A stretch of 64,000 nt of DNA. It comes from Chryseobacterium sp. 6424. GTDB lineage: Bacteria > Bacteroidota > Bacteroidia > Flavobacteriales > Weeksellaceae. The notes beneath the pieces are model-generated. The model was not told the DNA's origin, made no database searches, and saw only the letters and a program-made list of their open reading frames with translations. The position numbers and the translations under genes are program-made. The stretch lies in assembly GCF_003692615.1 (NCBI RefSeq), contig NZ_CP023540.1, forward strand, positions 558,001 to 622,000. Direction: 5' to 3'. Positions 35,463 to 56,064 of the stretch are shown in pieces. Position 1 is the first letter of the stretch. The number at the start of each line of letters is the position of its first letter.

Positions 35463-35575
35463 GGGCGCCTTTTTCCGCCTTCCGCTCCCGCTTTTCTATA
35501 ATTTTTTCTGCAAAAAAAATTATAGAAAGAGCTCCGCTCAAGTCGGGGCGCGGCCTCGGAGTAATTTTAATCTAA
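35463..35575. repeat. Intergenic hairpin repeat, copy 2
   Basis: The inner stem TCTATAATTTTTT pairs with AAAAAATTATAGA. The outer arms are CCGCTCCCGCTTTT on the left and GAGCTCCGCTCAAGTCGGG on the right. The arms match the element at 20096-20200, the inner stem does not. It sits just after nrdB and may also act as its terminator. Confidence 0.7.
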
Positions 35576-36391: not shown

Positions 36392-36476
36392 AATCCTAGC
36401 CCCGATCGCAGCGGCATCCTTTTTTGGTGGCTGAGGCTCTCGAAGCCACCAAAAAAGATATAGCGGAGAGCGGGAC
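36392..36476. repeat. Intergenic hairpin repeat with AGCGGCATCC / AGCGGAGAGCGGGA boundaries
   Basis: A strong inner stem (TTTTTTGGTGGCT with AGCCACCAAAAAA) is enclosed by CCCCGATCGCAGCGGCATCC on the left and GATATAGCGGAGAGCGGGA on the right. Its architecture is like that of the elements near 20.1 and 35.5 kb but its boundary sequences differ. The interval up to nrdA at 36573 shows nothing else. Confidence 0.7.
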
Positions 36477-36572
36477 GTGTCTTTCAGAGGATTCCGAAAC
36501 CCCGTTGCTCCTAAAAAAAATAAAAAATAGAGCGCAGATGCGACGATGCATCTTGCCTAAAAACATACTGTA

Positions 36573-38299: not shown

Positions 38300-39689
38300 T
38301 AGCATCTCACTAACTGTGTAAGTTGAAAAGTTATTCTGAAAATTTTGAGCCCTCAAAGCTCAGGAAATTTTCGGAAACCTAGCGAAGTGGTTCGGCGCAG
38401 CCAAATAACTTTTTACTATTTTTAAACCATTATACAGTTATGATCGACAAAGAAGAATTATTGAACAACAAAGAGTTTTATAAATCATTTAAAAGCGGAG
38501 AAGATTTAACCGCCTTCTTCAAACAAATGCACAAGAGTGCCGTAGAGCACATGCTGAACGCTGAACTGGATGCCCATCTGGACAACGAAAAGCATGAAAA
38601 AACTAAAGAAGGAAATTATCGTAATGGGCACGGAACCAAAAAGATAAAATCCTCTTTTGGAGAATCTGAAATCAAGGTTCCCAGAGACCGAAACGGTGAT
38701 TTTGAGCCTGCTTTAGTTCCTAAAAGACATAATATAATTGAAGGTCTGGAAAATGTGATCATCTCTTTTTATGCAAAAGGGATGAGCGTAAGCGACATCG
38801 AAGAACAGGTTCGGGAAATGTATGATTTTGAGGTGTCTACTTCCACCATATCCCGCATCACCAGTGCAGTAGCAAGTGAAATGGTAAGCTGGCAGAACCG
38901 TCCTCTGGACGATCTCTATCTGATTGTGTGGATGGACGGAATTGTTTTTAAAGTCCGTGAAAACTCTAAAGTCATCAATAAAACCATCTATTTGGCGGTG
39001 GGCCTGAACCGCGAGGGCAGAAAGGAAGTTTTGGGCATGTGGCTGGGAAAGAATGAAAGTTGCAGTTTCTGGATGAGCGTACTAACGGATCTCAAAGCCC
39101 GTGGCATAGAGGACATTCTGATTACTGCTACCGACAATCTCAATGGGTTTACTCAAACCATCCGATCCGTTTTTCCACAATCCCAAACTCAAATCTGCGT
39201 AGTCCATCAGATTAGAAATGCCTGTAAATATGTGGTTTGGAAGGACAGAAAAGCCTTTACAGCAGATATGAAACACATCTATACTGCGCCAAACAAACAG
39301 GCGGCAGAAGCTGCCCTACTGGATTTTGCAGAAAAATGGGAGTCTAAATATTCTTACGCCATCAGATCCTGGAAGGAAAATTGGGATGAACTCACCGTGT
39401 TCTTCGATTTTCCTTTGGAAATCCGCAAGATCATCTATACCACCAACTTAATTGAAAATCTGAACGGAAAAATAAGAAAATACACCAAAAACAAAATGTC
39501 ATTCCCAACGGATGATGCCGTGCTGAAATCGGTTTATTTGGCCTTGAGAGAAGCCACCAAAAAGTGGACAATGCCCATCCAAAATTGGGGGATTGTTCTA
39601 AACCAATTTATGCTTATTTTTGAAGAAAGGCTCAGATTATAAAATCCAAGCCTCAACTTTTTAACTTACACACTTTAAGGGATAGTGTC
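38300..39689 (+). mobile_element. IS256-family insertion sequence
   Basis: The element carries one transposase gene (38440-39642). The ends share an imperfect inverted repeat: CTGTGTAAGTTGAAAAGTT at 38314-38332 and, inverted, AACTTTTTAACTTACACAC at 39655-39673. Weaker similarity extends outward to about 38300 and 39689, so the outer limits are approximate. I found no convincing target-site duplication. The right end lies against the first CRISPR repeat (39690). Confidence 0.85.
38440..39642 (+). CDS. IS256-family transposase
   Basis: A 400-residue DDE transposase, the standard length. Acidic residues are in [10 protein letters not shown] (Asp), [10 protein letters not shown] (Asp) and [16 protein letters not shown] (Glu, in the IS256 signature). 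The N-terminus has [19 protein letters not shown], also typical (transposase mutator family). The reading frame is intact, so the element may still be active. Confidence 0.95.
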
Positions 39690-48844: not shown

Positions 48845-48963
48845 TAGGTCAAATAATACAGTAAAATAAACTTCAGCTAGTTCTAGAAGGCGACAGGGAA
48901 TATAAATATTGAAAGAGATTTTAAATCTTAAGGTGTTCTGTTATTATACAGTAAAACATTTGT

Positions 48964-49196
48964 TTAATAGTGCTTTTTCTCAATACATTTTTCTATAAAT
49001 TCACTTGGAGTAATATTGAATTGAGTACAGATTTTTGCATAAGCACAAAATCTATTTTCTTAATTCTACCATTCTCTATTTTAGAGAGTTTACTTTGGAA
49101 GATGTTTAGCGTGTCAGCTAATTGTTCTTGTGATATCATTTTGCTTTCTCTTATTTTTTTTATTTTGAATCCAATATCCATACTGCTCATTATCAT
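48964..49196 (-). pseudogene. XRE-family helix-turn-helix regulator with a frameshift
   Basis: The N-terminal 48 or so residues form a clear Cro/CI-type domain (IGFKIKKIRESKMISQEQLA and SKLSKIENGRIKKIDF). The frame then runs out in 49196-48993 with an unlikely tail. Removing one base from the shift, that is adding one A to the AAAA run at 49047-49050 (a T on the coding strand), restores CAYAKICTQFNITPSEFIEK and a stop at 48964, a typical ending for this family. It reads away from the bacteriocin-like genes and would be their natural local regulator. Confidence 0.75.
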
Positions 49197-49252
49197 TTAT
49201 TTTCAGTTAGTGCAAAATCTTTGTTAAAGTATCTTGTATACATACATGCTAA

Positions 49253-49429
49253 AGATTTAATAAATTTTACGATAATCCGAAAATAAATATTTTCGATGTG
49301 TTATACAAATTAAAAAATGAAGGATATATTCAGATTATTCCAAATGGAATAGAATGGATAAAAATTTCTTCTCATTTTAGCAACAATAAAAACAAAGTGT
49401 TTTTTATATCACAAAATTTATTAATTTAA
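49253..49429 (+). other. Start-less coding remnant or non-standard small gene
   Basis: After an in-frame stop at 49250-49252, a 58-codon open stretch runs to a TAA at 49427-49429, 12 bases before the first peptide gene. It has no ATG; the only usual alternative start is GTG at 49298. The translation (for example FDVLYKLKNEGYIQIIPNG) looks like a real folded domain in composition. It may be the tail of a deleted gene, or chance. I do not recognise it. The region otherwise (49197-49441) would hold the promoter of the peptide genes. Confidence 0.3.
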
Positions 49430-49441
49430 AAACTTAATTTT

Positions 49442-49618
49442 ATGAAAAAGTTAAATTTAATTCAAATGGAAAATTTGCAGGGTTCTGTAAATTGTTCTGA
49501 AGATACATTTTGGTGGATAGTAGGTGCGGGCACTGCTTTGACACTAGCTACTGGAGGTGTTGGGGCTTGGGCTTTAGCTGGGGGAATATATGGTTGTGTA
49601 ATTGCTAATTCAAAATAA
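49442..49618 (+). CDS. Bacteriocin-like peptide 1 (class IIb type)
   Basis: 58 residues, preceded by an A/T-rich leader. The N-terminus MKKLNLIQMENLQG fits a leader ending in a Gly-type cleavage site (LQG before Ser), as cleaved by C39 peptidases. The predicted mature part has 44 residues, is hydrophobic and rich in Gly and Ala (VGAGTALTLATGGVGAWALA), contains a GxxxG motif (GGIYG), and has two cysteines (residues 18 and 52). The second peptide gene follows after 6 bases and has the same leader. A C39 ABC exporter is encoded 3 kb downstream. No relative can be confirmed without a search. Confidence 0.75.
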   Translation: MKKLNLIQMENLQGSVNCSEDTFWWIVGAGTALTLATGGVGAWALAGGIYGCVIANSK

Positions 49619-49624
49619 ATTATT

Positions 49625-49828
49625 ATGAAAACATTATCTTTACAACAGATGGAATCAATTAATGGTGAGTCGGGTTTTAGTTCATTTTGTGCTGGTTTTG
49701 CAGCAGGTCAAGTTGGTGTTGCAGTTGCTGTCAAAATTGGATTAATTGCTGCTCCACCAGTCGGTGCAACAGTTGGTGCTGTTGTATTAGCTATAGATGC
49801 TGCTTGTGCTTTGGAATGGTTTTTTTAA
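49625..49828 (+). CDS. Bacteriocin-like peptide 2 (class IIb type)
   Basis: 67 residues. The leader MKTLSLQQMESING parallels that of peptide 1 (L-x-L-x-Q-M-E-x-[IL]-x-G). The predicted mature part has 53 residues, rich in Ala, Gly and Val, with a GxxxG motif (GFAAG) and two cysteines (residues 22 and 61). Such pairs of GxxxG-containing peptides act jointly in class IIb bacteriocins by forming a helix-helix unit in the target membrane. That function is inferred from composition, leader and neighbours. Confidence 0.75.
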   Translation: MKTLSLQQMESINGESGFSSFCAGFAAGQVGVAVAVKIGLIAAPPVGATVGAVVLAIDAACALEWFF

Positions 49829-49838
49829 TTTCTTTAAT

Positions 49839-50003
49839 ATGGTAAGAATTATTGTAATTGTATTTTACGTTATTTCATTACTTATTATGGTGCTCGATTT
49901 TTTGAAAGTCATTGATGTGCCTAAGTATATAAAACTTATTTATATACTGATTGCAATTATTGCTACAATTGATATTTTTTATTTGTCAAAAAGAAATAAA
50001 TAA
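49839..50003 (+). CDS. Small two-helix membrane protein, possible immunity protein
   Basis: 54 residues from the ATG at 49839. It has two hydrophobic helices (residues about 2-24, VRIIVIVFYVISLLIMVLDF, and 31-48, IKLIYILIAIIATIDIFYL) with a basic C-terminus (SKRNK). It follows peptide 2 by 10 bases, and a hairpin terminator follows it. Small membrane proteins in this position are often self-immunity proteins of two-peptide bacteriocins. There is no sequence motif to prove it. Confidence 0.55.
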   Translation: MVRIIVIVFYVISLLIMVLDFLKVIDVPKYIKLIYILIAIIATIDIFYLSKRNK

Positions 50004-50027
50004 CTCATTTTTTTTTACAAAAAAAGT

Positions 50028-50053
50028 AAGTTGTCAATAGTTGACAACTTTTT
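50028..50053 (+). terminator. Hairpin terminator/attenuator inside the bacteriocin-like cluster
   Basis: The perfect stem AAGTTGTCAA/TTGACAACTT with a TAG loop is followed by TTTC. It lies between the peptide/immunity genes and the ATG at 50058 of the next gene, so transport genes would be expressed at a lower level than the peptides. Confidence 0.75.
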
Positions 50054-50142
50054 CTTTATGAAAAATTTTATTATATATTTTATAGTTACCCCCGAAAATC
50101 GGACAGTAAGTTTAGTTGAAAAAAAACAATTAAATTTACGAT

Positions 50143-50415
50143 ATGTCACAGCGAAGAAAATTCAATTCAGGATTTAAATTTAAAGTAGTGGTGGAAGCTT
50201 TGAGCGAGCGATACACTATGCAGGAACTCGGCCGAAAGCACGATCTGCACCCCAACCAGATCTCTTCATGGAAGAAAGAGTTCTTGCAAAAATGCGCCGA
50301 TGTTTTTGGTAAGGAGGCTGCTGCAGAAGATAAAAAAGAGGATGTCGACAAGCTTTATAAGGTTATCGGTCAGCAGAAAATGGAGATTGATTTTTTAAAA
50401 AAAGCCTTGTCATGA
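50143..50415 (+). CDS. IS3-family transposase OrfA (copy 1)
   Basis: 90 residues with a helix-turn-helix (FKVVVEALSERYTMQELG, LHPNQISSWKKEFLQ) and a leucine-zipper-like tail. Near its end, a run of seven A (TTAAAAAAAGCC at about 50396-50407) is a -1 slippery site. It lets ribosomes move into the orfB frame to make the OrfAB fusion that catalyses transposition. Confidence 0.93.
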   Translation: MSQRRKFNSGFKFKVVVEALSERYTMQELGRKHDLHPNQISSWKKEFLQKCADVFGKEAAAEDKKEDVDKLYKVIGQQKMEIDFLKKALS

Positions 50416-51272
50416 AACAGTGCCGCCGAGCCCGTAAAGCTCATATTGACAAGGCCAATGCGCTCAGCGTTAAAAAGCAGTGTGAGGTGTTGCAGATATC
50501 GCGCAGCTCCCATTATTACAGGAAAGTTCCGCAAAGCAGTCTGAACCTGAATCTGATGCGGCTGATCGATGAAGAGTTCCTGAACCGTCCCTGGAAAGGA
50601 GTTCCCAGGATGACCAACTGGCTACAGCAGGATATGGGGTATACCATCAACAAAAAGCGTGTGGAAAGGCTTTACCGGGTGATGGGTCTGAGTGCTTCGG
50701 CACCTGGCCCTGCCACCTCCAAAAAAGGCAAAGGCAAGAAACACAAGATCTTCCCATATCTTTTGAGAAATTTAAACATTACGGCTTCCAATCAAGTTTG
50801 GGCAATGGATATCACCTATATTCCTGTGCAGGGCGGCTATCTTTATCTTTGTGCGGTAATCGATCTGTACAGCAGGTTTGTGGTAGGATGGAGCCTGAGC
50901 AACACGATGACTTCCGAATGGTGCCGCGATACCGTGGAGACGGCCATTGGAAAATACGGCAAGCCTGAAATCTTCAATACCGATCAGGGCAGTCAGTTCA
51001 CTGCAGATCTCTTCACAGAATTTATTACCAAACAGGGAATAGCCCTAAGCATGGACGGCAAAGGACGCGCTCTGGATAATATTTTTATTGAAAGACTCTG
51101 GCGAAGTGTGAAATACGAGAATGTATACCTATATGCTTATCAGGATGGACGAGCGTGCTACGGCGGCCTGAAACAGTATTTTCAATATTACAACAACGAG
51201 AGAAGGCATCAAAGTCTTGCATACGAAGTACCTGCGGAAGTCTACGACCGTACAAAAAAGGAAGCAGCATAA
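50412..51272 (+). CDS. IS3-family transposase OrfB (copy 1)
   Basis: 286 residues with an integrase core. The DDE triad lies in AMDITYIPVQGGYLY (Asp), FNTDQGSQFTADLF (Asp) and IFIERLWRSVKYENVY (Glu, with the usual K+7). Its ATG overlaps the end of orfA by four bases in the -1 frame. It differs from the copy-2 protein at about seven residues. Confidence 0.95.
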   Translation: MKQCRRARKAHIDKANALSVKKQCEVLQISRSSHYYRKVPQSSLNLNLMRLIDEEFLNRPWKGVPRMTNWLQQDMGYTINKKRVERLYRVMGLSASAPGPATSKKGKGKKHKIFPYLLRNLNITASNQVWAMDITYIPVQGGYLYLCAVIDLYSRFVVGWSLSNTMTSEWCRDTVETAIGKYGKPEIFNTDQGSQFTADLFTEFITKQGIALSMDGKGRALDNIFIERLWRSVKYENVYLYAYQDGRACYGGLKQYFQYYNNERRHQSLAYEVPAEVYDRTKKEAA

Positions 51273-52054
51273 ATGAACTTTCACACAGTTTTACACATTC
51301 CCACACTACACGGAAAAATCTTTGAAGGGATTTTTCCTATGTGGAAATTTGCAAAACTGCTACCCTTAAAAACAAATAAAATCAAACTTAACTTTTAAGA
51401 TTTACTGTCCAAACTTTGGGGGAAACTATATTTAGCTGTCGTCTTATGTTATATTATCTTAACTTATCTTGATAGACATTTCATTGCAACTGACAGCAAA
51501 ATTTTCGATTTTCTTTCTCAAGACTATCCCAGTCAAGTGGTACAAAACTATATGGAAAGCCAAAAAAAATGGTGGTGGGTTTCTTATGCGGTAACGCCTT
51601 TGCTTATAGGGATAAAGGTTTTATTAGTGGCATTTTGCCTAAACTTTATCCAGCTTTTTGATTTGACCAGCTTGGAAAAAATTAAATTTTCAGATTTTAT
51701 TTTTATTGTCCTTTTGGCTGAATTTGTCTTCGTTATTGCGGGTTTATATAAGTTTGTAAATTTCTACTGGTTACAAACCGATTATAATTTGGAAGATTTG
51801 CAGACTTATTACCCCATTTCGCTTATTAATCTAAGAGAATATCTATCTACTGAGAAATGGTTGGCCTACCCTTTACAATTGGTTAATCTTTTTGAACTTT
51901 TTTATTGGGGGTTTTTAGCTTGGGGAATTACCGAATTATCTGACAATAAAGTGAAGTTTGGAAAATCCTTTGGATTGGTTGCTTTAACTTATGGGATAGG
52001 GTTGCTATTTTGGGTTGGAGTGGTGAGTTTTTTAATTCTAAATGCGCAATACTG

Positions 52055-52576
52055 ATGATGAACAAAAAAGCACTTAAGATATTTGCAATTATTATTCCTG
52101 TCGTTTTTATAGGAATGATGATTTATTTGTTCATAGGTTTTCAAAACAAAAAGAAGAATGTGGAAGGTTTGCAAAATATTCCTGCTTTTTCTGTTCAGGA
52201 CATTAACGGAACTACCTTAACAGAGAAAAATATTCCCGAAGGAAATAAAGTATTGGTGTATTTTAATCCCGAATGTGAGTATTGTCAAATGGAAATGCAT
52301 GAACTATCACAGATTAATGAAAAACATAAAGACATCAATTGGATTATGTTTACCGATAAACCTTTAATGGAAATACAGCAATTTGCGCAAAAATATCATT
52401 TGGATAAAGCCGAAAATATAAAATGGTGCAACGATCCCAAAGCCGAAGTTTATCTAAAATTTGCGATGACAGGAATTCCTTATTTTCTTGGGTACAATGC
52501 AGAGAATAAATTGGTTCACCGAAGCACGGGAGCAACAAAAATTGAAAAAGTTTTAGCGGATTTTGATGGAAAATAG
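52055..52576 (+). CDS. Membrane-anchored thioredoxin-fold protein with CxxC
   Basis: 173 residues from the ATG at 52055, which overlaps the previous stop by one base. One N-terminal helix (about 8-28, IFAIIIPVVFIGMMIYLFIG) anchors the protein, probably with its domain in the periplasm. The TlpA/AhpC-like fold has VLVYFNPECEYCQMEMHEL, where CEYC is the redox pair, and a cis-Pro region in MTGIPYFLGYNAE. It sits between the interrupted membrane gene and the C39 exporter. Both upstream peptides carry two cysteines, so it may form or shuffle their disulfides. Confidence 0.8.
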   Translation: MMNKKALKIFAIIIPVVFIGMMIYLFIGFQNKKKNVEGLQNIPAFSVQDINGTTLTEKNIPEGNKVLVYFNPECEYCQMEMHELSQINEKHKDINWIMFTDKPLMEIQQFAQKYHLDKAENIKWCNDPKAEVYLKFAMTGIPYFLGYNAENKLVHRSTGATKIEKVLADFDGK

Positions 52577-54679
52577 AAAGCTTATCCTAAAAACTTTTTC
52601 GCTTCAAAAAGATTTAACGGATTGCGGTGTGGGATGCCTGCAATCTTTGATGCGTTACTACGGCGGTGATGTGTCTTTAGAAACTTTAAGGGAAAAGAGT
52701 GGCACGGCAAAAACAGGAACCACACTTTTAGGGCTTTACCAATGTGCTAATGAGATAGGTTTTGAAGCCGAAGGCTGCGAAGCGGATTTAAACGCTTTGA
52801 TAGAACACGGCGAGCCTGTTATTTTACACGTAATCTTAGAAAATAAACACGAACATTATGTGGTCTGCTATCACACAATTAATTCTCAAAATAATCAATT
52901 TCTTATTGGTAATCCTGCCAAAGGAATAGAAATCTGGTCGCTAGAATACTTAGAGGAGGTTTGGAAATCTAAAACCTGTCTTACCCTGAAACCAAAGGAA
53001 AACTTTGTAAAGGTTTCCGAAACCAAGAAAAAAAAGATAAAATGGCTGAAGGAGCTCCTTAGCAAAGATAAAGAAGCGGTTTATACAATTATCGTTCTTG
53101 GTGCTATGTTTACACTTTTGGGAATGGCAATGTCTATCTTTTCACAAAAGTTAATTGATGATATTTTACCTAAAAGAAAAATCAACGTTTTGATGCTGAG
53201 CATCGCGTTTCTTGGCTTTTTGCTTCTCGGCAGAGTTGGAATCCAGGCCTTACGAGAATTGTATATCATAAAACAAAGCAAGGCATTTAATCAGCGGATA
53301 AACCATAAGTTTTATTCATCGTTGCTTCATTTGCCCAAATTATTTTTTGATACCCGAAAAGTTGGTGATTTTGTAGCAAGACTCAACGATACCCAAAGAA
53401 TACAGAATGTTATTAGAATTTTAATAACTAATACCGCAACGGATGTTTTGGGCGTTCTGATTTCTATTGGTTTTTTATTTTACTATTCCTGGAAACTGGC
53501 TTTGTTTTGCTTGTTGGTTTCGCCTTTGGTTTTCTACTTGATTTTTAGGTTTAACAAAAGAATTATTGAATCCCAAAGAAATGTTATGGAGGCTTATAGT
53601 GGAAATGAAGCAAATTACATTGACAGCATTAGAGGAATTGACGTAGTAAAAGGATTCTCTAAACAAAATCTTTTCTCAAAAGAAACGAAGTCTTTTATGA
53701 GAATTTTCAGAATAAAATTTTTGAATTAGGTAAACTCAACTTGAAAATTACTTTGTATTCGGGAATTGCTTTAGTCTTTATTCTACTGGGCATTTTGGCT
53801 TTTTCTTCTTACAATGTTTTAATTGGCGAAACGATGGTAGGAGAACTGATGGCAATTATAGGCATTGCAAGTTCTCTTTTGGGTTCGATTACCAACTTAG
53901 CCCTGGCAAGCATTCCCATTCAAGAAGCACGAGTAGCATTTGACAGAATGTTCGAATATTCATCTTTAGAAAAAGAAAAAACAGAAGGCGAAACAATTAC
54001 TGAACTCAATTCTGTTGAAATAACGAATATAGATTTTAGATTTAATGGAGGAAGCCGGCTTTTGAATAATGTTTCTTCGAAACTTGAAAAAGGTAAAGTT
54101 GTTTGTCTTCTAGGAGAAAGCGGAAGTGGAAAAACAACCCTTACAGAAATTTTGCAAAAAAACTATTTTACTGAAAGTGGAAAAATAACCATAATTGACA
54201 AAATTGATTTGCAAAATGTCTCTTTAGAAAATTGGCGAAATTTAATAAGTGTTGTTCCTCAAAGTATTCAACTTTTTAATGGAAATGTTTTGGAGAATAT
54301 TATTTTGGATGATAAAATTGATGAAAACAAGTTGCAAAATATAGTATCATTAGGTTTTGATAAGTTCATTAATTCTTTGCCACAAGGAGTTATAACTGTG
54401 GTTGGCGAAGAAGGAATTAATTTATCTGGCGGACAAAAACAATTATTGGGATGGATGCGAGCTTTGTATCACAATCCAAAATTTTTAATTTTGGATGAGC
54501 CGACTTCTTCTTTGGATTTGATAAACCGAAATTTTATTTATGACCTTATTAAAAAACTGAAAAAGGATTCAGTAATTTTTATCATTAGTCACCATTCTGA
54601 AGATGTGGCAAAAATCGCGGATGAAATTTTTGTTTTGGAGAACACGCAAATATCTAGAAAAGAATTTGCATTTTCATAG
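52566..54679 (+). pseudogene. C39-peptidase ABC bacteriocin exporter with a one-base frameshift
   Basis: Starts at ATG 52566, overlapping the redoxin gene by 11 bases. A C39 peptidase domain (about residues 1-145) has the catalytic Cys in LTDCGVGCLQSLMRYYGGD and His in KHEHYVVCYH. The usual Asp position reads GNPAKG, with Asn. Six membrane helices follow. At 53691-53696 (TCTTTTAT) a T is missing: the first frame stops at 53729 and the rest is read from the -1 frame (YENFQNKIFELGKLNLKI). The ATPase has Walker A GESGSGKTT, signature LSGGQKQ and Walker B FLILDEPTSSLD. Joined length is about 705 residues, normal for these exporters, which cleave leaders and export peptides. Confidence 0.85.
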
Positions 54680-54847
54680 TTGATGCTAATATAGTTACCC
54701 CCAAAGTTTGGACAGTAAATCTTAAAAGTTAAGTTTGATTTTATTTGTTTTTAAGGGTAGCAGTTTTGCAAATTTCCACATAGGAAAAATCCCTTCAAAG
54801 ATTTTTCCGTGTAGTGTGGGAATGTGTAAAACTGTGTGAAAGTTCAT

Positions 54848-55708
54848 TTATGCTGCTTCCTTTTTTGTACGGTTATAGACTTGCGCGGGCACTTCGTATG
54901 CAAGGCTCTGATGTCGTCTCTCCATGTTGTAATATTGAAAATACTGTTTCAGGCCGTCATAGCACGCTCGTCCATCCTGATAAGCATACAGATAAACATT
55001 CTCGTATTTCACACTTCGCCAGAGTCTTTCAATAAAAATATTATCCAACGCCCGTCCTTTGCCATCCATGCTTAGGGCTATTCCCTGTTTGGTGATAAAT
55101 TCGGTGAAGAGATCTGCAGTGAACTGACTGCCCTGATCGGTATTGAAGATTTCAGGCTTGCCGTATTTTCCAATGGCCGTCTCCACGGTATCGCGGCACC
55201 ATTCCGAAGTCATCGTGTTGCTCAGGCTCCATCCTACCACAAACCTGCTGTACAGATCGATTACCGCACAAAGATAAAGATAGCCGCCCTGGACAGGAAT
55301 ATAGGTGATATCCATCGCCCAAACCTGATTGGAAGCCGTAATGTTTAAATTTCTCAAAAGGTATGGGAAGATCTTGTGTTTTTTGCCTTTTCCTTTTTTT
55401 GAAGTAGCAGGGCCAGGTGCCGAAGCACTCAGACCCATCACCCGGTAAAGCCTTTCCACACGCTTTTTGTTGATAGCATACCCCATATCCTGCTGTAGCC
55501 AGTTGGTCATTCTGGGAACTCCTTTCCAGGGACGGTTCAGGAACTCTTCATCGATCAGCCGCATCAGATTCAGGTTCAGGTTACTCTGCGGAACTTTCCT
55601 GTAATAGTGGGAGCTGCGCGATATCTGCAATACTTCGCACTGTTTCGTGACGCTAAGTGCATTGGCCTTGTCAATATGAGCTTTACGGGCTCGGCGGCAC
55701 TGTTTCAT
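54848..55708 (-). CDS. IS3-family transposase OrfB (copy 2)
   Basis: 286 residues with an intact DDE core (AMDITYIPVQ, FNTDQGSQF, FIERLWRSVK). Differences from copy 1 include SVTKQ for SVKKQ, YAINKKR for YTINKKR, CYDGL for CYGGL and NMERRHQ for NNERRHQ. The frame is intact. Confidence 0.95.
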   Translation of the reverse strand: MKQCRRARKAHIDKANALSVTKQCEVLQISRSSHYYRKVPQSNLNLNLMRLIDEEFLNRPWKGVPRMTNWLQQDMGYAINKKRVERLYRVMGLSASAPGPATSKKGKGKKHKIFPYLLRNLNITASNQVWAMDITYIPVQGGYLYLCAVIDLYSRFVVGWSLSNTMTSEWCRDTVETAIGKYGKPEIFNTDQGSQFTADLFTEFITKQGIALSMDGKGRALDNIFIERLWRSVKYENVYLYAYQDGRACYDGLKQYFQYYNMERRHQSLAYEVPAQVYNRTKKEAA

Positions 55709-55977
55709 GACAAGGCTTTTTTTAAAAAATCAATCTCCATTTTCTGCTGACCGATAACCTTATAAAGCTTGTCGACATCCTCTTTTTTATCTTCTGCAGC
55801 AGCCTCCTTACCAAAAACATCGGCGCATTTTTGCAGGAACTCTTTCTTCCATGAAGAGATCTGGTTGGGGTGCAGATCGTGCTTTCGGCCGAGTTCCTGC
55901 ATAGTGTATCGCTCGCTCAAAGCTTCCACCACTACTTTAAATTTAAATCCTGAATTGAATTTTCTTCGCTGTGACAT
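55705..55977 (-). CDS. IS3-family transposase OrfA (copy 2)
   Basis: 90 residues, identical in translation to the copy-1 OrfA, with the same A7 slippery site before its end for -1 frameshifting into orfB. Confidence 0.93.
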   Translation of the reverse strand: MSQRRKFNSGFKFKVVVEALSERYTMQELGRKHDLHPNQISSWKKEFLQKCADVFGKEAAAEDKKEDVDKLYKVIGQQKMEIDFLKKALS

Positions 55978-56038
55978 ATCGTAAATTTAATTGTTTTTTT
56001 TCAACTAAACTTACTGTCCGATTTTCGGGGGTAACTAT

Positions 56039-56064
56039 AGCCAACTGCGACAGTTGGCTTTTCT
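56039..56064 (+). terminator. Hairpin terminator at the right edge of IS3 copy 2
   Basis: The perfect stem AGCCAACTG/CAGTTGGCT with a CGA loop is followed on the plus strand by TTTTCT. Its first base is the last base of the insertion sequence. It may be the original terminator of a rightward operon now lost, or serve the converging oxidoreductase gene. Confidence 0.65.

Follow-up and report, generated by a model that had tools for sequence, protein, structure and literature searches.

The window analysed here is a 64,000-nucleotide stretch of the genome of Chryseobacterium sp. 6424 (Flavobacteriales, Weeksellaceae; contig NZ_CP023540.1, positions 558,001 to 622,000, forward strand). Towards its right end lies an island with two adjacent genes for short precursor peptides, a small hydrophobic protein, a terminator-like hairpin and an export module consisting of a five-transmembrane (five-TM) protein, a redoxin and an ATP-binding cassette (ABC) exporter with a C39 peptidase domain (Table 1). 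We consider it probable that this island is a horizontally acquired, by now presumably inactive copy of a bacteriocin system of Bacteroidota whose intact relatives would work as proposed below. Judged by its genes, the family to which it belongs is probably a bacteroidetocin-type system in a variant that often has two peptides and probably bears immunity.

Table 1. Features of the island, in coordinates of the window
Feature	Position	Strand	Basis
Whole inserted island, both insertion sequence (IS) copies within	48845..56039		flanks: hemL and NADH:flavin oxidoreductase gene
Small XRE-type helix-turn-helix (HTH) protein, divergent from the peptides, probable regulator	48993..49196	-	Pfam HTH_3 E 3.3e-8, HTH_19 4.9e-8
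Precursor peptide 1, 58 amino acids (aa), leader MKKLNLIQMENLQGS, core with 2 Cys	49442..49618	+	open reading frame (ORF); 8 family-genome homologues
Precursor peptide 2, 67 aa, leader MKTLSLQQMESINGE, core with 2 Cys	49625..49828	+	ORF; 5 homologues
54-aa hydrophobic membrane protein, putative immunity protein of the pair	49839..50003	+	position, hydropathy
Intrinsic-terminator-like hairpin, possible attenuator between peptides and export genes	50028..50050	+	10 pairs, T-rich tail
5' fragment of the membrane-protein gene, MKNF... start as in intact relatives, cut by the IS	50058..50080	+	sequence against intact homologues
IS3-family IS (orfA 50143-50415, orfB 50412-51272)	50081..51430	+	orfB: NF033516 E 3.2e-76
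Rest of the five-TM membrane protein, bacteroidetocin-TM-like	51438..52055	+	78% identity to intact L007
Membrane-anchored AhpC/TSA-type redoxin with CEYC	52055..52576	+	PF00578 E 4e-9
C39 exporter piece 1: C39 domain and part of the TM domain	52566..53729	+	PF03412 7.7e-28, PF00664 2.8e-30
C39 exporter piece 2, other frame: remaining TM domain and ATPase	53741..54679	+	PF00005 1.2e-27
Second copy of the same IS, inverted, 96%, right edge of the island	54690..56039	-	repeat comparison

An earlier note on this DNA, made from the letters alone, had described two adjacent short genes with parallel leaders, a small membrane protein and an attenuator, and all of these were found again, the two genes as forward-strand ORFs. 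Both leaders are 15 aa long, and the cores, of 43 and 52 aa, are slightly acidic (one K+R and two D+E in each). The leaders are indeed parallel, but neither has a GG end, the last two residues being GS and GE. Similarly, the GxxxG motifs to which it pointed are present and are enriched over 69 family peptides (109 against 83.6 ± 7.7, reached in 0 of 500 shuffles), but in the window pair they occur at chance frequency (1 against 1.21 expected, and 2 against 0.76, the latter reached by 16% of shuffles). Terminator-like sites between the first peptide and the membrane-protein gene were detected in 11 of 28 loci, compared with a mean of 0.12 per locus in simple shuffles.

Homologues of both peptides were recovered, and the note had held that conservation confined to the leader, or close homologues without any C39 exporter, would speak against its reading. 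For peptide 1, 10 of 316 family genomes matched at E 0.01, namely the window itself, eight loci where the match adjoins a membrane-protein gene and one hit that falls within a 323-aa frame; seven of the eight loci have exporter and redoxin, and the eighth (G278) has neither within 7.5 kb. The core of peptide 1 is nearest to peptides of L065 and L054 (raw scores 62 and 58; 99.9th shuffle percentile 55), both of which come first in a tandem pair. In the protein collection, five homologues of peptide 2 were found (aligned at 60-86% identity), and 25 of the 27 invariant columns of this set lie in the core, both Cys among them; one homologue lacks the first 8 residues, and when it is excluded about 6 of 15 leader positions are invariant (hand count). 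Conservation is thus found in the core as well as in the leader. Similarity of peptide 2 to the other module peptides is weaker (50 against 51 at the 99.9th percentile). No family model in Pfam or NCBIfam matched either peptide at cut-off, and the best bacteriocin-type matches below it were the lichenicidin family (E 0.09) and MccV (E 0.59; peptide 2).

The export genes of the window copy are broken in the assembly. A 1.35 kb IS3-family element, present in four copies in the genome, separates the hairpin from the main part of the membrane-protein gene and, when set against intact relatives, falls within the start of this gene; the earlier note had recognised the membrane protein and overlooked the IS inside its gene start. 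The thioredoxin-fold protein that it reported is confirmed as a CxxC redoxin, both Cys of which are invariant across seven aligned proteins. What it called the cluster's own C39 exporter does carry C39 and ABC-transporter domains, but these lie in two frames, whereas the exporter is a single ORF of ~700 aa in intact relatives, and the triad of the C39 domain reads Cys, His, Asn, with Asn in the third position where Asp is expected. This position aligns with an Asp of the solved bacteriocin transporter 4ry2, which we take to be a catalytic residue. Among exporters with D-[CN]-G near the frame start (n = 41), Asp occupies the position in 37, the exceptions being the window (N), L006 (Y), L076 (N) and L077 (N); it is missing in three of the five split exporters (window, L006, L077, L105, L113) compared with one of the 36 others (Fisher P 0.0036). 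Because the membrane-protein gene is interrupted by the IS and the exporter is both split and changed from Asp to Asn, processing and export should stop. The window copy thus looks broken and is probably inactive, rather than the working system that the earlier note had assumed.

The island was probably acquired horizontally and is inserted at a site that is empty in relatives. The gap between hemL and the oxidoreductase gene is 7.2 kb in the window genome and does not exceed 440 bp in 27 of the 35 other genomes of the genus (hand count), the remainder having gaps of 1.5-1.6 kb (three genomes) or of 3.9 and 5.6 kb (two), the two genes on separate contigs (two) or genes that were not located (one). 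A junction hairpin (GCCAAC...GTTGGC) fills the site in all five relatives whose site was compared, and the same hairpin is retained at the right edge of the island, immediately after the second IS. The membrane protein is absent from all 35 other same-genus genomes. The AT-rich character ascribed to the cluster was borne out by a GC content of 24-35% outside the IS compared with 43.3% for the window (upstream 24.2%, peptides and small protein 30.8%, export genes 33.3%, single export genes 31.8-35.1%).

The same gene set recurs across Bacteroidota. A profile of seven membrane proteins matched 24 of 320 genomes of the family Weeksellaceae (members including Chryseobacterium, Cloacibacterium and Cruoricaptor), 15 of 395 of the order and 29 of 395 of the phylum, the three sets overlapping; the family matches comprise 22 full-length ones, window included, and two partial ones in unrelated proteins. 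In 42 of the 58 distinct loci examined (L009 having been removed as the same record as L050), redoxin and exporter stand beside the membrane protein. Within the family, 21 of the 22 full-length loci, the window counted, have all three genes, and the recurring set of leader, peptide, redoxin and C39 exporter that the note had named as support was found there and beyond. The exception, L059 (G278:C42:52100-59659), holds membrane-protein pieces and two GG-leader peptides, with no exporter or redoxin within 7.5 kb, and looks like another decayed or peptide-only locus.

Redoxin or exporter is lacking in 16 of the 58 loci. Strong membrane-protein matches with neither gene are found in L059 (329 bits) and, outside the family, in L074 (168 bits). 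Also outside the family, 11 loci (L114-L117, L119-L121, L123-L126) score below 100 bits and lack the full set, L115 standing beside a C39-like 454-aa protein. L077 has an exporter but no detected redoxin, and L068 and L069 contain no real membrane protein. L074 (G432:C16:58600-71300) has no leader peptide either, and upstream of it stands a divergent HTH gene, together with coding sequences for a hydrophobic protein of 75 aa and a 304-aa protein that includes a Gly/Ala-rich stretch. In L114, L119 and L123, distant five-TM relatives lie beside other genes with no exporter, and the five-TM family evidently has a second setting besides the module. Since the membrane-protein family extends beyond the module, a bacteriocin locus should not be called from a weak match alone. 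The plasmid collection gave one distant membrane-protein match.

Peptides with comparable leaders accompany the module widely. A strict leader pattern, applied without a Cys filter, identified 50 peptides in the 42 module loci; on the opposite strand it gave nothing there and a single peptide in the remaining 16 loci. The cores of these 50, from which the Cys statistics are taken rather than from the filtered search that follows, contain exactly two Cys in 46 cases, three in 3 and one in 1, and have a median length of 38.5 aa (range 32-65). A looser pattern combined with at least two Cys returned 66 same-strand and 0 opposite-strand candidates in the 42 loci searched, 36 of which were positive, and this strand bias indicates that the leader peptides are more than chance. 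At least one tandem pair is present in 19 of the 36 peptide-bearing loci, and the earlier note's reading fairly stands in the form of bacteriocin-like peptides of disulfide type that are often paired. Four pair types recur, their members occurring together in all 11 cassettes observed; type 1 is found in five loci (L057, L061-L063, L066) and the other three in two loci each (L054/L065, L055/L060, L052/L053).

Other peptide types also occur beside C39 exporters. In L118, L127 and L128, GG-leader peptides of other kinds lie upstream of distantly related modules, for example of a ...CDGKSP..ALCGS type; those of L118 and L127 have four Cys, those of L128 two. The exporter set thus seems to be used by more than one family of peptides. 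The window genome encodes one other C39 exporter (L003:7213-9423, ~1.625 Mb) in an open frame of ~737 aa, near which lie a 367-aa protein and a 62-aa precursor (L003:11115-11303) with the leader ...LSPLEKRMIKGG and a poly-glutamine, proline-rich core; this precursor belongs to a different class.

By the rule used, a small membrane protein follows 31 of 49 peptide cassettes, and its identity tracks that of the peptides. Of the 22 locus pairs with like cores (score >0.4), 15 also have like small proteins (>0.3), compared with none of the 440 locus pairs whose cores are unlike; with exporter similarity controlled for, the partial rank correlation is 0.28, a value reached by 1 of 999 permutations. 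At least two cassettes of differing type stand before one export set in L055 and L061. This matching suggests cognate immunity conferred by the small membrane protein, in exchangeable cassettes of peptide plus protection. The window's own small protein is nearest to the same-position protein of L052 (raw score 70 against 58 at the 99.9th shuffle percentile), whose peptides are not the closest to those of the window, so that the window adds nothing to this pattern.

For leader cleavage, disulfide formation, killing, pairing and immunity in this family we infer the following course. In intact relatives, one or two small precursors with 15-aa leaders would be synthesised, and the C39 ABC exporter would cleave the leader after the G-x site and carry the core over the inner membrane. 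The membrane-anchored CxxC redoxin, aided by the conserved five-TM protein, may then form one disulfide per core. The cores, often as a pair, would kill competitors, from which the producer would be protected by the cassette-specific small membrane protein. In the window genome, processing and export would have stopped, while the peptide and putative immunity genes remain intact.

Several observations weigh against this interpretation. The window leaders end in GS and GE, which makes the cleavage site uncertain, a GG end being usual yet not universal among relatives. Pairing is not universal, as 17 of the 36 peptide-bearing loci have no visible tandem pair, and six of the 42 module loci have no peptide at all (L006, L011, L071, L075, L106, L113), five of these offering only ~1 kb or less of upstream sequence. 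L074 stands without redoxin or exporter despite a rather strong match. By the rule used, 18 of 49 cassettes lack the small protein, the 15 matching pairs stem from four peptide groups in nearly all cases of one genus and so represent few independent events, and the similarity limits of 0.4 and 0.3 are arbitrary. Lastly, the exporter split might be a sequencing indel, since the stretch is rich in A/T runs; the Asn and the IS argue for decay rather than sequencing error, without proving it.

This last point bears on whether the window copy is functional after all, with the other exporter in use, the small protein acting as plain immunity and the split being a sequencing or assembly error. Both peptides and the small protein have open frames, the homologues of peptide 2 show it to be conserved and the other C39 exporter has an open 737-aa frame, but that exporter adjoins a precursor with a different leader, the four-copy IS interrupts the membrane-protein gene and the triad Asp is missing, as it is disproportionately in split exporters; we therefore regard a functional copy as very unlikely. 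An orphan immunity island, retained after the loss of toxin export as a shield from neighbours producing the same pair, would account for an open small-protein gene, open peptides and damaged export genes, and L059, with its peptides and membrane-protein pieces, could be a similar case; the peptide genes are open as well, however, and we judge this explanation unlikely.

The other two alternatives concern the family as a whole. Its peptides could be secreted signals or factors in development or autolysis and not serve as weapons, a role with a precedent in the Nap peptides of Neisseria, which are also processed by C39: according to PMC11798529, GG-leader peptides with a C39 peptidase and a regulator can serve autolysis without killing competitors. 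A relative of the divergent HTH gene stands upstream in 10 of the 42 module loci, which would suit such a role, but highly diverse cores that are exchanged as cassettes, each together with its corresponding small membrane protein, fit toxin and immunity better, as does the sparse, island-like distribution (none of the 35 other genus members), and signalling seems to us distinctly unlikely. A genuine two-peptide bacteriocin of class IIb, as found in lactic acid bacteria, would explain the tandem pairs, the family-wide GxxxG enrichment and the adjacent small membrane protein. The accessory genes are nevertheless those of bacteroidetocins, two Cys per core are the rule, no class IIb model matched, and in the window the cores are slightly acidic with GxxxG at chance, so that this assignment appears highly improbable. 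We accordingly favour the acquired and probably inactive bacteriocin system set out above.

Two further features lie in the window outside the island. No RNA element within the cluster reached Rfam gathering scores; two Flavo-1 small RNAs are found at 35467-35554 (reverse strand) and 36394-36481 (forward strand), less than 1 kb apart. A 400-aa ORF at 38440-39642 resembles a transposase of another type, as judged by eye and with no family search.

Two-peptide bacteriocins have been described chiefly in Gram-positive bacteria. The family shares with class IIb, such as lactococcin G, adjacent peptide genes (in the window two of comparable size), Gly-rich cores, a small immunity-like membrane protein and a C39 exporter. 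It differs in its redoxin and five-TM protein, its two Cys per core, its Gram-negative hosts and its lack of a family-model match, and membership in class IIb, to which the earlier note had likened the system, is not supported, given that neither peptide reached the cut-off of any NCBIfam or Pfam model. Microcins of class II, colicin V among them, are alike in having a C39-processed leader, a hydrophobic core and a Gram-negative host.

Colicin V export involves a membrane-fusion protein and TolC, according to PMC10352776; beside the modules no membrane-fusion or TolC-type gene was noticed by eye, no family search having been aimed at one. The Neisseria nap island, as described in the excerpts of PMC11798529, is likewise an acquired island with several GG peptides, a C39 peptidase, a regulator and an immunity-like protein; its peptides are cationic and have a role in autolysis, and a redoxin is not among the parts described in those excerpts. 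Class II candidates in Bacteroidota have been reported with IIBacFinder and may include the present peptides (PMC12648078). Among the matches listed from the open-access literature, which covers titles and abstract starts and leaves most subscription papers outside, no such flavobacterial system was described.

The nearest characterised system is that of the bacteroidetocins of Bacteroidota, proposed as class IIf by Coyne et al. 2019 (PMC6671954), a system passed over in the earlier note's statement that characterised examples are mostly from Firmicutes. The bacteroidetocin region comprises a five-TM protein, a bacteriocin-like peptide, a thiol oxidoreductase and a GG-peptidase ABC exporter; activity was attenuated when the gene for the peptide, the TM protein or the oxidoreductase was deleted, and the four genes together were sufficient in E. 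coli (PMC6671954). Bacteroidetocin A had no effect on the single Flavobacteriales species tested. The two systems agree in leaders of 15-16 aa, cores with at least two Cys, low-GC mobile DNA, Bacteroidota hosts and the side-by-side arrangement of five-TM protein, thiol oxidoreductase and exporter, a trio that also stands beside the window peptides, with two of its three genes broken. Bacteroidetocin cores measure about 35-50 aa, close to the 43 and 52 aa of the window cores.

The five-TM family shows five hydrophobic stretches in its profile (topology by hydropathy) and matches the TM protein of L077 (P0121) in a profile comparison (probability 98.8, E 1.1e-16), so that its putative link to bacteroidetocins runs through the bacteroidetocin-like L077; as a single query, the L077 protein recovered only four relatives and did not reach Bacteroides. 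L077 itself (Aureibaculum marinum, Flavobacteriales) has a TM gene, a four-Cys peptide and an exporter in the published order. Between these genes lies a 313-aa ORF, a redoxin was not detected there, and the exporter is split.

Bacteroidetocins A and B are single four-Cys peptides encoded between the TM and oxidoreductase genes; three of their close relatives likewise have four Cys, the other members have at least two, and in C the number is uneven (PMC6671954). The window cores, with two Cys, do not share the four-Cys pattern of A and B, and in contrast the present family has Gly/Ala-rich two-Cys cores that are often paired and mostly encoded upstream of the export set, often together with a peptide-matched small membrane protein. 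The window copy is of lesser value here, being probably dead, but the family supplies many natural peptide and immunity pairs for testing. We tentatively raise the possibility, which we hold slightly more doubtful than probable, of a phylum-wide modular antibacterial system in which a constant five-TM/redoxin/C39 unit would serve exchangeable cassettes of one or two single-disulfide peptides with a cognate immunity protein, a Gram-negative counterpart of class IIb built on bacteroidetocin machinery. For the bacteroidetocins no immunity gene was found and producers were sensitive (PMC6671954), and the same machinery combined with paired peptides and a matching small protein makes immunity in Bacteroidota testable.

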